From contig NZ_JNLL01000001.1 of the NCBI RefSeq assembly GCF_000703085.1, positions 558,001 to 622,000 of the forward strand: a DNA stretch of 64,000 bases, given 5' to 3'. The stretch is from Persephonella sp. KM09-Lau-8. GTDB taxonomy: Bacteria > Aquificota > Aquificia > Aquificales > Hydrogenothermaceae. The notes beneath the pieces were generated by a model. The model was not told the DNA's origin. It saw nothing but the letters and a program-made list of their open reading frames with translations, and searched no databases. The first letter of the stretch is position 1, and every line of letters begins with the position of its first letter. Position numbers and translations under genes: made by a program. Below, one piece after another: positions 54,575 to 64,000 of this stretch.

Positions 54575-55525
54575 TTACTCATATTTCTCAAGAAGTTTAT
54601 AGATTTCACTGAGCTTTTTGTTTATTGCTTTTTCTACTTTTATTTTTTCTTTTTCAGGCAGCTTTCTGTATAGCTCTGATACTCTTTTGTTTAGATCTTT
54701 GAAAGTTTCTTTGAATGGATTTTTAACTCTTTTTTCTGCTTCTTCCCCTAAGATTTCTTTTACCCTTTGTTGAACTTCTTTTTTGGTAAGACCTTTATCT
54801 ATTATTTCCTGTATAAGCTGTTCCATTTTTTCAGGTATATGTCTGAGTTTATTAACCTCTATTGCGAGACTGTAAGACCAGCCATATTTTCTGATGGCTT
54901 CTTTAATCTGAGGTGCAACATTCAGGATTTTTAGTCTTTCTATGAATGTTCTTAAGTTTGTACCTGATAGTTTCTGAAGGGTCTTTTCTATAATTTGTCC
55001 CTCTTTTCTTTCTTCTGGAGTAAGCTGTTTTACGTTGCCGGAAATATAATTAAATACTTTCCTTGCTATTTTGATTACTTCTTCTTTATCCTTGCCCAGT
55101 ATAAATGATAAATACTCCAGATGGGACATAAGTTTATCATAATCATTCAGGTCTTCTCTCTGGGCATTTTCAGAAATCATAAGGGCTAATGCCGTTTCTT
55201 CATCAACATCAAGAACAATTGCAGGAATTTTATCCTTTTTTAGATACTCGTAGGCTTTAAGACGAATATATCCGATTATTCTTTCATAACTACCGTCTTC
55301 AAGCTTTCTAACCACTATAGGCTGGGCAAGGCCATAGGCTTTAATATTTTCTGCCAGAGCTACAATTCTCTCAGGGCTTACATAACTTCGGTCATGGAAG
55401 CGGGGATTTTTTATTTTTGATATCTCTATTTCCTGTGGCTTTACTTCCTGTATTGTTTGTATTACCTTTTTTGCTTTTTGTGTTTTTGGTGTGTCAAGGA
55501 CATCTTCAAAAATTCCTAAATCCAT
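54575..55525 (-). CDS. parB: ParB-family partition protein with atypical GERR box
   Basis: 316-residue ParB/Spo0J-like DNA-binding protein. The N-terminal domain has VEPERI-like and EISKIKNPRFHDRSYVSPER, then the box that in chromosomal ParB reads GERRxRA is GYIRLKA at 85-91, lacking the first two residues important for CTP hydrolysis. ENAQREDLN (119-127) is close to the canonical ENLQREDL. The helix-turn-helix region and a C-terminal coiled coil follow (EAEKRVKNPFKETFKDLNKR). It pairs with ParA encoded immediately upstream. Plasmid-type or island-type rather than chromosomal ParB is possible. Confidence 0.85.
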   Translation of the reverse strand: MDLGIFEDVLDTPKTQKAKKVIQTIQEVKPQEIEISKIKNPRFHDRSYVSPERIVALAENIKAYGLAQPIVVRKLEDGSYERIIGYIRLKAYEYLKKDKIPAIVLDVDEETALALMISENAQREDLNDYDKLMSHLEYLSFILGKDKEEVIKIARKVFNYISGNVKQLTPEERKEGQIIEKTLQKLSGTNLRTFIERLKILNVAPQIKEAIRKYGWSYSLAIEVNKLRHIPEKMEQLIQEIIDKGLTKKEVQQRVKEILGEEAEKRVKNPFKETFKDLNKRVSELYRKLPEKEKIKVEKAINKKLSEIYKLLEKYE

Positions 55526-55538
55526 CTTACTGACCTCC

Positions 55539-56390
55539 TTATACCATTACAGTTTCAGGTAGATGAATTCTTCTAATAATTTCATCTGTGATATTTTCAA
55601 CGGCAAGGATAATATCCTTTTGGGCTCTTTTTTCCTTTTCTATGTAATCTCTAATTGAAATTCTTTTTCCTGCTGCTTCTGCCCAGGCAATTCTGTCTTT
55701 GATAGGTTCAAAGAATAACTCGTCGGAAGCGGTTTTGATAAAGTCATATTTTTCAAGTATTTCAGGAATGGTTTTCTTTAAGGAAGCAAGGACATCATTA
55801 TGTTCTCTAAGCCTTGGTTTATAAGCCACAGGAATAAATCCAAGTATAGACAAATCAAGCCTAAAGGTCATTACTGCCTGTATGACGGTCTGAAGTGTTC
55901 CTACCAGTCCGGTGGAATCAACAAAGGTTAATCTGGTTGGAACAAGGATATAATCACTGGCAGCTATAGTTCCAACGGTTAATGCTCCGCTATCGGCAGG
56001 AGAGTCTATCAAGACAAAATCGTATTCCTCTGCTATGCCTTTTTTGCCAAAACCACCTTTCAGGAAATTAGCCAGAACAAGCTCTTTTCCCATTCTTCCG
56101 CTTTCTGCTTCCTCTCTTAGACCTTGATTTGAGGGGATAAGGTCAAGGTTTTCTTTTACATTGACAGGGGTTACACCTTCATTTTCAAAAATATTTGTGA
56201 TGTCGTGTTCAGTATTAACAAACTCAGAAAGCCTGTTAAACCCAAAAAGCATAGTTTGTGTTCCCTGAGGGTCGTAATCAACTACCAGAACTTTGTATCC
56301 TCTTCTGGCAAGTTCATGTGAAATCGCATTGGTAAGGCTGCTTTTACCTGCTCCACCTTTTTGGTTAACAAGTCCAATAATTTTACCCAT
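55539..56390 (-). CDS. parA: ParA-family partition ATPase
   Basis: 283-residue deviant-Walker ATPase. KGGAGKSS at 11-18 is the Walker A, VDYDPQGTQTMLFG the A' region and FVLIDSPADSGALTVGTIAA the Walker B segment. There is no N-terminal helix-turn-helix, so it is the short ParA type. It moves ParB-bound DNA by nucleoid-linked gradients. It lies 13 bases upstream of parB. The 230-base gap upstream holds an array of TGTCTTA repeats that may control the pair. Confidence 0.93.
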   Translation of the reverse strand: MGKIIGLVNQKGGAGKSSLTNAISHELARRGYKVLVVDYDPQGTQTMLFGFNRLSEFVNTEHDITNIFENEGVTPVNVKENLDLIPSNQGLREEAESGRMGKELVLANFLKGGFGKKGIAEEYDFVLIDSPADSGALTVGTIAASDYILVPTRLTFVDSTGLVGTLQTVIQAVMTFRLDLSILGFIPVAYKPRLREHNDVLASLKKTIPEILEKYDFIKTASDELFFEPIKDRIAWAEAAGKRISIRDYIEKEKRAQKDIILAVENITDEIIRRIHLPETVMV

Positions 56391-58857: not shown

Positions 58858-60057
58858 TCATTTTTTCTTTACGTATTTATAAAGGAGGCTGTAATACTCT
58901 CTTATTTTATCAATACCTTCCTTGGGTGAATATTTAGAGGAACTTTGATGTGCTATAGCATTTCTAATATTTCTTACTTTATTATATATGGTTATGAATG
59001 CGTTTTTAGTTTTAGAGTTAAGATATTTCTCTTTTATATAATCTCTATTATCCTTTATTTTGGGGTCAATATTTTCTTTTTCACATAAAGCGGAAATAAC
59101 AGCTTCAGCTAAAGCAATATAAGCAATAGCATAATTCTCGTTTTCTATATTCCACTTTGCAAACTCAAATTGAAATTCTGAAACCGTTTTATTTGAAAAT
59201 CTATTTATAAATTTTTCTAAATCTTCTGATATTAAATTAACAAATTTACTTTCGCTTTTTTTAAATTTATTTATTTTTCCTTTTAATCTTTTGATTTCCT
59301 GTTCAAGTGCAAACATATGAGATATGCTTAATGCATAAGAAAAGTTTACAACAGAATTTTTAATATCTTCATCTATTTCAGTTTTCTGGAGTAAATTTCT
59401 TAAAGATGTGCTGTTTCCATAATTCTTTAAATCTCTAATTGCTCTTGCCCAAGACAAAAATTCTAATAAAACTTTTAAATCAACTATTGGCGAAGGAGGT
59501 TTTTTTGAAAGCATTCCATAAAAGATTCCACCAATTTTAATTTCCTTTATATCCATTAGTTCTGCTAAAATTAAGCTCATTACTGAAACTGACCTAAACA
59601 AATGTGTAATATCAAAATAAACTACATCATTCTTTGAAACCATTGATAGGATTTCAAGAAATTTATCAAAAATTTTAAGAATTTCTTCTTCAGTTGTCCC
59701 CTCTTCAACAACGAAACATTTACTTCCTTCTATAGTTAAATACTTATTAATTACATTTGATAGTTTAATTAGATATTCTTCGTTTATTAATCCTTTTTCT
59801 TTTTTTTCCAATAAGTCTAATATTAAATCTTCATTAGCTCCAAAATATTCAGCAACATTGTCCCACATAGATTCTTTTGTTCCTATTATAAAGACTTTAT
59901 TAATGTCGTAGTGTTCAATAATAGCACTTGCAACAAATTTTTTATCTTTATATATCGTTCCATCTATAATGTAATCAGTGCCTATATATTCATTTTTCTC
60001 TAAATCCCCTTTGGCTAACTTTCCTGTTCCAAGTAAGGTAATCAATACCTTTGCCAT
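58858..60057 (-). CDS. Csx1/TM1812-type CARF-HEPN ribonuclease
   Basis: 399-residue type III CRISPR accessory protein. The N-terminal Rossmann-like CARF domain has VLITLLGTGKLAKGDL, HYDINKVFIIGTKESMWDNV and FDITHLFRSVSVMSLILAEL, the latter near-diagnostic of the TM1812 (TIGR02221) group. The C-terminal HEPN domain ends in RNIRNAIAHQSS, with catalytic-type R365-x4-H370. CARF binds cyclic oligoadenylate made by Cas10 and activates HEPN RNase. It is last in the visible cas operon, 17 bases after the RAMP gene. An AAGGTG ribosome site precedes it. Confidence 0.88.
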   Translation of the reverse strand: MAKVLITLLGTGKLAKGDLEKNEYIGTDYIIDGTIYKDKKFVASAIIEHYDINKVFIIGTKESMWDNVAEYFGANEDLILDLLEKKEKGLINEEYLIKLSNVINKYLTIEGSKCFVVEEGTTEEEILKIFDKFLEILSMVSKNDVVYFDITHLFRSVSVMSLILAELMDIKEIKIGGIFYGMLSKKPPSPIVDLKVLLEFLSWARAIRDLKNYGNSTSLRNLLQKTEIDEDIKNSVVNFSYALSISHMFALEQEIKRLKGKINKFKKSESKFVNLISEDLEKFINRFSNKTVSEFQFEFAKWNIENENYAIAYIALAEAVISALCEKENIDPKIKDNRDYIKEKYLNSKTKNAFITIYNKVRNIRNAIAHQSSSKYSPKEGIDKIREYYSLLYKYVKKK

Positions 60058-60074
60058 AACTACACCTTTTTCTA

Positions 60075-62180
60075 TTAAGGTTTTCCATAATCTGTTGATT
60101 TTCCTAAGATTTTTCTGTCCCTAAATTCTTTTAATTCTTGATAATCTGTTTTCTCTAACCAATCTTCTTGTTTAGTATTTTCCCAGTTCAATATTGCTTT
60201 TAGCTCTTTGAGTCTTTCATGTTCCCATAATGAAGAAGGATGTTCCATTTTACTTTTAATTTTAATAAAGTTTTCAAATTTTGATTTAAACTCATCAATA
60301 TCAACTTCTTTAATGCCTAAATTCCAGTTATCGTCTTCAAATAAGCTTTCGTATCTTTTTTGTGTATCTATTAAATAGAGTTTAGGCGTAATTTTTATAC
60401 TTCCGAGTCCTAAAGGTTTAGCCATCCCTATTTTATGATAATGATTTTCAGGTAAATCTAATACAAAAAGTAAAGCTCCAAGTTCTTCATCTGTAAGATT
60501 TTCAAATCTTATTTTCCCTTTAAACTTTGCTCCTGTATTTAGTGGATTTATTTTTGTTATTACGTTTTTTTTCTCTTTTTCTTCTTTACTTGCTAACCAA
60601 TATTGTGGATTTTTATTAATATCTTTATGCCAATAGAGTTTGTAGCCTCTTATTAATACATTTGTATCCCAGTGATTTCTCTCTTTCCCGTGTACTCCTT
60701 TTTGCTCTAAATAATGCTGAAAAGCTGTAGGCTTTGGTGCTGCTAAAATTCTTGGGATTTTTTCTCCTAAACTTTCACCTCCAGATATCAATACCGCATC
60801 TTCAAAATAAACTCTACCTGCCCATTTTCCTTCCTTTCCAAAAATAGCTTCTGCAAAATCTGGTCTTTCATCATCTTTTAGTTTTTCAGGAATGTGTTCT
60901 GATATTTTTTTCTCGTAAGGAACTCTAAAATATCTTGTATGTCCAAAGGCTTTGATTCTATTTCTATTTTTTTCTTTTAAATAAAAAACAGGATATTCTT
61001 TTCTTTCCAAGACGTTAATGGATTTTCTATCTGTATCACTTTGATATTCTTCAATATTTTCTAAAGATAGCCTATCTATATCTCCACTTTTTTCTTTGTC
61101 CAATATCCATTGAGTTCTCTTTTGTTTTCCTAATTTACCAGATGCTACTAAATAAGCAGGTTTAAATTTGGAATTTTGAGTAAATACTATATTTTCGACA
61201 ATAGGATGTTTTTGTGAGTAGGAATTTTTCCCAGATTTAGCACTTTTTGGGTCAAAAGATATATTGTAATAATTAAAAATTTTCAATTCTTTATCTTTAA
61301 TTTTGAAACTTTTATCTCCTGTCCATTTTACCTTTACTCTGTAAAATTTTTTATTTTTAAATCTATATATAGAATATTGTCTCCTTCCTTCTTTTTTTAA
61401 TAAGCCTGCAAATATTTCATATTTTTGCTCTCCATTTACTTTTCCATCTAACAATTCTCTGTAATATTTTCCAAAACTTGTTTTATCTCCGACTGCCCTA
61501 AAATAAAGTCTTTTATCTTCAAAATTTTTAAATTTTCCAAAACTTACAATTTCTACTAATGTTCTAATCATTCCTCTTAGGCTACTTCCAGGAATTTTAG
61601 GAACACCATTTATATTAAAAAATTCAGATTTATCTTTTGACTCCTTCCCTTCTTTTACTTCCTCCTCGTCTAAGCCATCTCTTATATATATAGGAGTAAG
61701 AGCTTCTATTTCTATTTCTATATAACCTGTGTTCAAACTAGAGTGATATGTAGAAAAACCTTTATAATCTGCTAAATTTTCTTCTTTTCCATTAAAAACT
61801 TCCACCGGAATATCTGCTATTTTATCTAACAAGACAACTTCCTTATTTAAAGGAACAAAGTTGTAGGGAGCTTTTGAAGTTTCAGGTGGACTTTCTAAGG
61901 ATTCTTTATATGACTTATTTTTAGGTTTTTTATAAGAGGTATTAATCTTAACTTTTTGTTTTTCTGATTTTGATTGTTTCACAGGTTGAATACCCTCTTT
62001 TGTATAAACTTTACCTTCAAGAGTTATTTCTTTTACAAATAAACCTTTTAATTCAAACTCACATTCTTTTCCTATTAAATTATCTGTAATTCCTTTTATT
62101 CCTAAAATAGGGTAAGATTTCGAACTACCTATTTCTTTTATAACTAATTTACCTTTTTCTTTTACAATCTTACCTTTCAT
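60075..62180 (-). CDS. TIGR03986-type RAMP (Cas7-like with insertion)
   Basis: 701 residues. A beta-barrel-like start (1-60) and a charged linker (65-105) precede FVPLNKEVV (108-116), the opening of TIGR03986 family RAMPs. Motif VPKIPGSSLRGMIRTLVEIV (193-212) is the Cas7 glycine/arginine loop; HKIGMAKPLGLGSIKI near 610 is the C-terminal Gly-rich RAMP loop. Only one Cas7 core is apparent, with long insertion regions, so it resembles the Cas7-insertion subunit of type III-Dv complexes. It starts three bases after the csx19 stop. Confidence 0.85.
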   Translation of the reverse strand: MKGKIVKEKGKLVIKEIGSSKSYPILGIKGITDNLIGKECEFELKGLFVKEITLEGKVYTKEGIQPVKQSKSEKQKVKINTSYKKPKNKSYKESLESPPETSKAPYNFVPLNKEVVLLDKIADIPVEVFNGKEENLADYKGFSTYHSSLNTGYIEIEIEALTPIYIRDGLDEEEVKEGKESKDKSEFFNINGVPKIPGSSLRGMIRTLVEIVSFGKFKNFEDKRLYFRAVGDKTSFGKYYRELLDGKVNGEQKYEIFAGLLKKEGRRQYSIYRFKNKKFYRVKVKWTGDKSFKIKDKELKIFNYYNISFDPKSAKSGKNSYSQKHPIVENIVFTQNSKFKPAYLVASGKLGKQKRTQWILDKEKSGDIDRLSLENIEEYQSDTDRKSINVLERKEYPVFYLKEKNRNRIKAFGHTRYFRVPYEKKISEHIPEKLKDDERPDFAEAIFGKEGKWAGRVYFEDAVLISGGESLGEKIPRILAAPKPTAFQHYLEQKGVHGKERNHWDTNVLIRGYKLYWHKDINKNPQYWLASKEEKEKKNVITKINPLNTGAKFKGKIRFENLTDEELGALLFVLDLPENHYHKIGMAKPLGLGSIKITPKLYLIDTQKRYESLFEDDNWNLGIKEVDIDEFKSKFENFIKIKSKMEHPSSLWEHERLKELKAILNWENTKQEDWLEKTDYQELKEFRDRKILGKSTDYGKP

Positions 62181-62183
62181 AAT

Positions 62184-62729
62184 TTAAACCTCTTTTAAGA
62201 AAAATTTCACAAATCTATTATCTTCAAAGCCTACTTGCCCCAATGGATTGTATGTTATGTAATTTCTTGTTTTTATGAATAATCTTTTATTTAAAGATAC
62301 ATCTTCGTTTAAAATTTTTTTTGGTAAAATAAAAATGGAACCTCTATCTTCCTTTATTTTTTTCCAGTTTTCGTCAATGCTTATTGTTTCAGTTCCTAAT
62401 ATAAGCTGATTTGTATCTATATATTCTATTTTTCCATTGTCGGATGGAATATCCTTTCTATAACGATAAAAATACTTATTCTTCTTTCTCCATATATGTA
62501 ATTCTTCATCTTCGTTAAAAGCTCTAATTCTAAAAGTAAAGTCATAGTCCGGTTTTTCAAAGAAAAAAAGGTTCCTTTGCTCTATATACCCAAATAAAAT
62601 TTGATAATCAAGCCACAAAACTACAGTTCCGTTATTAATAAGTTCTGTTATAAATTCAGGCGAAATTTTTTCTATTTGTCCTATATATGTTTCGGAATCT
62701 ATATTTTTTTGGATTATGTATTCTTTCAT
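62184..62729 (-). CDS. csx19: Csx19 (TIGR03984 family) type III-D subunit
   Basis: 181 residues, a small beta-rich protein. Features shared with Csx19: NGTVVLWLDYQILFGYIEQR near 35-55, FRIRAFNEDEELHIWRKKNK near 90, a middle NQLILGTETI strand, GSIFILPKKI and a C-terminal RLFIKTRNYITYNPLGQVGF ending in VKFFLKEV. It has no catalytic motif. In the known III-Dv complex Csx19 is a structural subunit. The start overlaps the double-RAMP stop (ATGA); its stop lies three bases from the next start. Location between the two RAMP genes is as in that system. Confidence 0.82.
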   Translation of the reverse strand: MKEYIIQKNIDSETYIGQIEKISPEFITELINNGTVVLWLDYQILFGYIEQRNLFFFEKPDYDFTFRIRAFNEDEELHIWRKKNKYFYRYRKDIPSDNGKIEYIDTNQLILGTETISIDENWKKIKEDRGSIFILPKKILNEDVSLNKRLFIKTRNYITYNPLGQVGFEDNRFVKFFLKEV

Positions 62730-64000
62730 CTCCTTCCTCTTACACTCTTTATAAACTCGGATACAAAATTTTCCAATTCCTGCTTTATGTTCTCTTTATT
62801 TCCTTTTATATCTAATTTCCCATTCTTATTTTCCAAAATTGCTTTTATCTTTTCCTCTCCTTTTTCATAAACTATTTTGGCAAATATTCCTTCAAATGTT
62901 CCTCTACCAATATTTTTCTCTCCACCTATAGTAAGGTGTCCTGTCCATAAATCTTTCAATAAAAGTAAGAGTAAGCCGATATCTTCATCTTTGGCTTCTT
63001 CTATTTTTATTTTTACAAAAACTTTGTTGTTTTCTTTTGCCCATAGTGCAAAACTATCAAATAAAGCTGAATGAATTACTCCACCGGTAAATCTATCTAT
63101 TCTTATTCTGTTTTGTAATTTTTTTAAATACTCCTCTACTGTTGTTTCTTTTACATACATCCTGCTTTTTATTTTTTCTTTTGTATTTTCATCTGTGTAG
63201 CCCATCAAGTCTTTTACATATTCTTCTCCATTTCCACCTAAGGTATTTACAATTTTTACAGCCTTATTTCTTATAGCTCCTTTCACCGATGTTCCTGCTA
63301 ATACAGGTTTACCGTCACTTTCTATATGTGTTTTATCAGGAGCTTCAGGATTTGGAGAATAAGAACCTATGATTAAAGAATTTTTAATTTTTAGCTCTGC
63401 AGTTAGATAAAACGTATTTTTGTTTTTCTTTTCTAATGTATTTTCAGAAATTTTAGTTTTAGGATTTGTGTAAATTCCAGTTAAATAATTGATTGCATCT
63501 TCTTCATTACTAAAATCAAACTCATAAATTTCTATATTATTAAGTTTGATTTCACCAAATCCACGTGTAGTTATAGCTCCTACTTTTAGTTTTTCATTTT
63601 TTAGAATGTTTATTATAGTTTGAAGAATTTTATAAAGTTCTTCTTTCTTTTCATTGAATTCTTGTCTTAAAGTGAGTTCCCCTTGAAAACTAAATTCTAC
63701 TTGAGGTTCTAAAATTTCATAATTATATTTAGCTTTTTCTTCTGTAATTCCTATTTTGTTATTTATCTTAATTCCGTTTCTTATGTTTATTTTTCTTTTA
63801 ACTAAATCTTCATTTATAGGTGTTAAATCATTTAAAATAAAATGACTTTGATAGGTTTCTTTATTTTCATCAATTATATTGCTTCCCCAGAAATATTCAA
63901 AAGAATTACCATCTAAAACTTTATAATTATTTTTAATATAATGTCTCAATGCGCCGGCAAATGAGCTTGCTGGTATATAAGGAACCCCATTTTTATCTTT
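62726..64000 (-). CDS. Double Cas7 RAMP (Cas7-2x type), 5'-truncated by window edge
   Basis: The frame is open to the window edge, so the TTG at 63949 is an internal Leu; the edge residues read KDKNGVPYIPASSFAGALRH. Two Cas7 units are visible: PASSFAGALR plus GAITTRGFGEIKL, and PVLAGTSVKGAIR plus TGHLTIGGEKNIGRGTFEGI. The Asp in APDKTHIESDGKP of the second unit is where Csm3-type enzymes have the catalytic residue. It would form part of the crRNA-binding backbone and cut target RNA at fixed intervals. The upstream cas10 and fused Cas7-5-11-like genes lie off the window. Confidence 0.85.
   Translation of the reverse strand, partial: KDKNGVPYIPASSFAGALRHYIKNNYKVLDGNSFEYFWGSNIIDENKETYQSHFILNDLTPINEDLVKRKINIRNGIKINNKIGITEEKAKYNYEILEPQVEFSFQGELTLRQEFNEKKEELYKILQTIINILKNEKLKVGAITTRGFGEIKLNNIEIYEFDFSNEEDAINYLTGIYTNPKTKISENTLEKKNKNTFYLTAELKIKNSLIIGSYSPNPEAPDKTHIESDGKPVLAGTSVKGAIRNKAVKIVNTLGGNGEEYVKDLMGYTDENTKEKIKSRMYVKETTVEEYLKKLQNRIRIDRFTGGVIHSALFDSFALWAKENNKVFVKIKIEEAKDEDIGLLLLLLKDLWTGHLTIGGEKNIGRGTFEGIFAKIVYEKGEEKIKAILENKNGKLDIKGNKENIKQELENFVSEFIKSVRGRR

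Follow-up and report, generated by a model that had tools for sequence, protein, structure and literature searches.

A probable type III-Dv CRISPR effector operon joined to a Calp signalling cassette in the thermophile Persephonella sp. KM09-Lau-8

The window, a stretch of 64,000 nucleotides from Persephonella sp. KM09-Lau-8, corresponds to bases 558001-622000 of contig C1 in a genome of 2.07 Mb. A preliminary description of its last part had recognized four minus-strand open reading frames, for a double Cas7 RAMP, Csx19, a TIGR03986-type RAMP and a CARF-HEPN nuclease, as a single operon cut at its 5' end. All four were confirmed with the families named, and when the reading was extended to C1:614001-633000 (locus L002, in which adding 56000 to a coordinate gives the window-frame coordinate) the operon was found to continue past position 64000 as predicted. 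Its ten genes, in window-frame coordinates, are as follows.

58858..60057, minus strand: csx1, CARF-HEPN ribonuclease effector, 399 aa
60075..62180, minus strand: Cas7-insertion subunit (TIGR03986), 701 aa
62184..62729, minus strand: csx19, 181 aa
62726-64114, minus strand: Cas7-2x, 462 aa, with residues 39-462 inside the window and the start codon 114 bp past its end
64107-66305, minus strand: Cas7-Cas5-Cas11 fusion (Cas11 part putative), 732 aa
66309-67745, minus strand: Cas10, 478 aa
67762-69288, minus strand: CalpL, 508 aa
69290-70201, minus strand: CalpT, 303 aa
70237-70917, minus strand: CalpS, 226 aa
70907-71599 (L002:14907-15599), minus strand: fourth Calp gene, 230 aa

The spacing of the Cas7-2x, csx19, Cas7-insertion and csx1 genes (gaps of -4, +3 and +17 bp) makes the proposed operon plausible, and neighbouring genes throughout the set of ten are -11 to +35 bp apart, so that a single transcript is likely from the arrangement of the genes. 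Every open reading frame of the operon is intact and all catalytic residues checked are present. The operon has a G+C content of 0.278 compared with 0.335 for the window. ParA- and ParB-like genes lie directly downstream of the operon (window 54575-56390), and these neighbours together with the low operon G+C are a hint that the segment is plasmid-like or was acquired.

The effector proteins were compared with the five-subunit III-Dv complex of Synechocystis PCC 6803 (PDB 8s9t/u/v/x; PMC11026444). The Cas7-Cas5 fusion matched chain 8s9t_A over residues 9-560 (E 4.2e-19), and its full-length profile alignment to III-Dv chain A gave E 1.5e-31. Cas7-2x, with two RAMP stretches in one protein, matched 8s9t_D (E 3.2e-14), the double Cas7 RAMP of the preliminary description (62726-64000) being the 3' part of this gene, and Cas10 matched 8s9t_C (E 9.6e-21). 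For these three proteins the top PDB match was a III-Dv chain. The Cas7-insertion protein matched TIGR03986 (E 1e-130, 438 bits, cut-off 161) and, by phmmer, 8s9t_E (E 1.1e-14), as well as Cas7-11/gRAMP-type chains that scored somewhat higher. The assignment of Csx19 held up, with a match to TIGR03984 (E 7.6e-29, 100.6 bits, cut-off 35); the protein has diverged too far for a sequence match in the PDB, and its predicted fold, a low-confidence model (pLDDT 48), ranked 8s9u_B and 8s9t_B first among PDB entries with probability 1.00. Chain B was read as Csx19 by elimination, since each of the remaining four protein chains of the complex carries another name. The downstream CARF-HEPN protein, also as described, matched PADLOC CARF_HEPN (E 1.8e-120) and TIGR02221 (E 2.4e-37), and the HEPN R-x4-H motif RNAIAH near its C terminus aligned with Synechocystis Csx1. 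Scores of the size obtained for the four proteins named in the preliminary description are well outside the range of chance.

The PADLOC Cas5_IIId model covers the fusion protein to residue 723, and when a low-confidence structural model of a relative's Cas7-5-11 was compared by fold, the four highest-ranked matches were III-Dv chain A entries, with 765-799 alignment columns. The 160-aa C-terminal tail of the fusion, which is helical in this model and produced no significant match when the tail alone was used in profile comparison, is a putative Cas11. In Synechocystis, mutation of D26, D33 or D246 abolished each respective cut (PMC11026444), and the aligned counterparts here are D23, D34 and D260; both catalytic aspartates of Cas7-2x are thus retained (D34 and D260 opposite the tested D33 and D246). 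A GGDD motif is present in the Cas10 palm at 284-287, with D286/D287 the counterparts of the tested Synechocystis D308/D309. On inspection of the sequence, Cas10 has no HD dipeptide and lacks the N-terminal HD nuclease, which is likewise absent from most III-D Cas10 proteins (PMC11229360).

Upstream of the window end, Cas10 and the Cas7-Cas5-(Cas11) fusion complete the III-Dv-like set of fused subunits that had been proposed, and the gene order cas10, cas7-5-11, cas7-2x, csx19, cas7-insertion is that of Synechocystis plasmid pSYSA. The two systems also share the fusions themselves (that of Cas11 being putative here), the catalytic aspartates, the GGDD motif, the absence of HD and a downstream csx1 gene. 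Identity between corresponding subunits is only 24-30%, and the present locus differs in that csx1 lies within the operon (in Synechocystis it is on the opposite strand), a Calp cassette is added, cas6 is in trans and cas1/cas2 are duplicated. Parts of type III-E Cas7-11 (gRAMP) are matched by Cas7-insertion and Cas7-2x; however, type III-E is a single-protein effector without Cas10, whereas the present system retains Cas10 and Cas5 in an effector of five separate proteins. The gene content, gene order, homology and conserved catalytic residues observed at this locus make it highly probable that the operon encodes a type III-Dv (III-D2) effector set with a Calp signalling cassette attached at the 5' end.

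That cassette is complete, with a CalpL Lon-SAVED protease, a CalpT anti-sigma factor, a CalpS sigma factor and a fourth gene. In the published cascade CalpL binds cA4 and cuts CalpT, so freeing CalpS, and the SAVED domain is reported to degrade cA4 (PMC11417357). The 508-aa CalpL, a Lon-SAVED fusion in which the Ser-Lys dyad is kept, matched the solved CalpL of Sulfurihydrogenibium sp. YO3AOP1 (PDB 7qda, 8b0u; PMC11417357) with E 7e-54 against 7qda, and R357 aligns with R361 of that protein. A contig from a genome of the same family encodes the solved CalpL and carries homologues of calpS and calpT, arranged as they are here; the proteins in the CalpT and CalpS positions there matched the 303-aa CalpT (E 8e-20) and the 226-aa CalpS (E 2e-17), the latter giving no Pfam sigma match. 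The PDB fragment CalpT10 starts at residue 196 of CalpT from that organism, and the aligned cut falls here between A227 and A228 (Ala|Ala), the residue preceding the cut being Ala in 10 of 11 homologues. The Sulfurihydrogenibium cassette, at 27-35% identity, shares gene order, catalytic dyad, cut position and a same-family fourth gene before calpS, but is followed by a III-B cmr operon rather than by III-Dv. Two further genera of this family have a cassette of about 70% identity, and on one of these contigs a III-A csm operon follows, indicating that the Calp cassette moves independently. When 40 complete four-gene Aquificota cassettes were compared, the flanking Cas10 was cmr-type in 11, csm-type in 10 and III-Dv in one (the present locus), and in 18 no Cas10 was found within the fetched flank. 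In three genomes, which belong to two genera, the cassette has the same DUF1232 gene at its flank (L002:15912-16346, L053:6850-7251, L057:5867-6307), which suggests a common insertion place. Comparison of promoter regions upstream of the cassette revealed only a short TTCTGAC word common to three loci. In one genome CalpT and CalpL apparently form one 640-aa open reading frame (L093:5238-7160), which may be a genuine fusion or an artefact of assembly.

Upstream sequence of 1.6 kb or more was available for 42 CalpL loci, and in 41 of them a gene of the fourth family lies upstream of calpS, in the order X-S-T-L; the profile was trained on those same loci, so that it is the constant position that counts as independent evidence. 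An R-P pair and two cysteines are shared by all of 32 members, two more cysteines are at least 90% conserved, and these four near-invariant cysteines perhaps form a metal site. The protein gave no Pfam or PDB profile match, and its PADLOC family, C3a162, is listed without function. A MazF-like identity, considered from a KG..RP pattern, was rejected, neither Pfam nor PDB profiles supporting it. The gene is absent from the tripartite Calp model in the literature searched. We tentatively propose, at a likelihood a little short of even, that this protein is a near-universal component of the Calp pathway that helps to hold or release the sigma factor under a III-A, III-B or III-Dv signal.

The preliminary description had found no array or adaptation gene in the window and had suggested looking beyond 64000 for cas10, a fusion, cas6 and arrays. 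The adaptation genes and arrays do all lie outside the window, as does cas6; cas10, the fusion and one array were recovered past 64000 and cas6 in trans. The features upstream of the operon, again in window-frame coordinates, are listed below.

72399-72656, plus strand: cas2
72630-73523, minus strand: cas1
73535-74443, minus strand: divergent cas1-like gene
74424-74777, minus strand: second cas2
about 74767-75335: CRISPR array

The contig carries three arrays, at 532 kb, 632.8 kb and 873 kb, with 5, 8 and 5 repeats respectively, all of which have a 35-nt repeat ending ATTGCGAC and a nearly identical leader; the expected crRNA start would be AUUGCGAC. Tandem repeats near 74767 were considered as 26-aa coding repeats on account of two identical spacers; that reading was rejected because the spacing (70 and 76) and the leader in common with the other arrays identify a CRISPR array. 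A single cas6 could be detected with Pfam in the genome. It ends about 320 bp ahead of the 532-kb array, about 90 kb from the operon, and because it is the only one and lies beside an array of this repeat type it is likely to encode the crRNA processing enzyme of the III-Dv system. Five spacer-derived patterns had no exact match in viral contigs. Against the A+T-rich background of the genome, most spacers (array at L002:18767 to L003:331, and L012 array at C1:873 kb) have a high G+C content; one array holds two duplicated spacers, and a single target sequence is represented, with one difference, in both arrays. Adaptation blocks with a normal cas1, flanking cas2 and an extra gene of 283-302 aa were seen at five loci (L002:16399-18777, L055:6981-9208, L063:691-2975, L065:1332-3616, L060:8470-10452). 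The extra gene here has a weak match to the Cas1 N-terminal part and seems to lack catalytic residues, so that from its sequence it is possibly a catalytically dead Cas1 partner. Elsewhere in the genome, a 332-aa SAVED protein without a Lon domain (L014:1746-2744, C1 about 786.7-787.7 kb) is encoded between cmr6 and a type I-B cas8b in a mixed III-B/I-B locus.

The expectation that such a system would be rare in Aquificota was borne out, with the III-Dv fusion present in 2 of 136 genomes, compared with CalpL homologues in 64 of the 136. Scanning a genome collection with an alignment of three fusion proteins returned a Thermotoga MAG contig, a cyanobacterium and the Hydrogenobaculum contig, the last of which had been found before. 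Hydrogenobaculum sp. ARK-05 (L104) and Thermotoga sp. B3_G13 (L103) have the same fused subunit genes, with Cas7-5-11 at 33-37% identity, on short contigs on neither of which a Calp cassette was seen. The pairing of III-Dv with Calp is therefore rare, given one III-Dv among 40 cassettes, the fusion in 2 of 136 genomes and the few relatives in the scan, and no description of it was found in the literature searched, from which the original CalpL paper was absent.

RAMP proteins resemble each other across subtypes, and Csm3, Cmr4 and Cmr6 models cross-match, so the genes might only look fused and the operon might be an ordinary multi-subunit III-D1, III-A or III-B system. We consider this extremely improbable, since the fused open reading frames are intact with III-Dv chains as best matches, the standard III-A/III-B set looked for upstream was not there (no separate Csm2/Cmr5, Csm4, Cmr3 or small-subunit gene in the operon), and a Sphaerospermopsis plasmid carries a split III-D relative that shows the unfused form for comparison. 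Decay of the locus to an inactive state is very improbable: the arrays are short, with 5 to 8 repeats, and contain duplicated spacers, and the low operon G+C suggests foreign origin, but all open reading frames are intact, all tested catalytic residues are present and the shared leader is retained at three arrays.

The cassette might instead be a passive neighbour serving another type III system while III-Dv signals through Csx1 only, as could be argued from the occurrence of a similar cassette on a III-A operon elsewhere and of a Cmr6 gene near 786 kb in this genome. However, calpL ends 16 bp ahead of cas10 on the same strand, and a diffusible messenger would reach co-expressed CalpL regardless, so that this reading too is unlikely.

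By analogy with the studied relatives, from which complex assembly, RNA cleavage, the cA4 messenger, the protease cascade and the pairing of Cas6 with the repeats are taken, a III-Dv system with a Calp output arm may act as follows. A crRNA-loaded complex of Cas10, Cas7-5-11, Cas7-2x, Csx19 and Cas7-insertion would bind foreign RNA, the crRNAs presumably deriving from the three arrays of one repeat type after cutting by the Cas6 encoded about 90 kb away, and three Cas7 sites would cut the bound RNA. As Cas10 lacks the HD domain its output would be cyclic oligoadenylate, made by the GGDD palm and predicted to be cA4. Two receivers are predicted: Csx1, leading to RNA degradation, and CalpL, which would assemble and cut CalpT after A227, freeing CalpS to change transcription. 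The SAVED domain may also degrade cA4 and thereby time the response.

Type III-Dv has been proposed as an intermediate between type III complexes of several proteins and the single-protein Cas7-11. To our knowledge, one organism, a mesophilic cyanobacterium, has so far yielded its structure. The locus described here is a complete and rare III-Dv system with a Calp output arm in a thermophilic host, and with its full subunit set and all catalytic residues it provides a second, probably more stable, III-Dv example. The apparent coupling of III-Dv to a sigma-factor cascade allows the compatibility of Calp with any cA4-making Cas10 to be tested, and the conserved fourth gene points to something specific and testable that the Calp model lacks.
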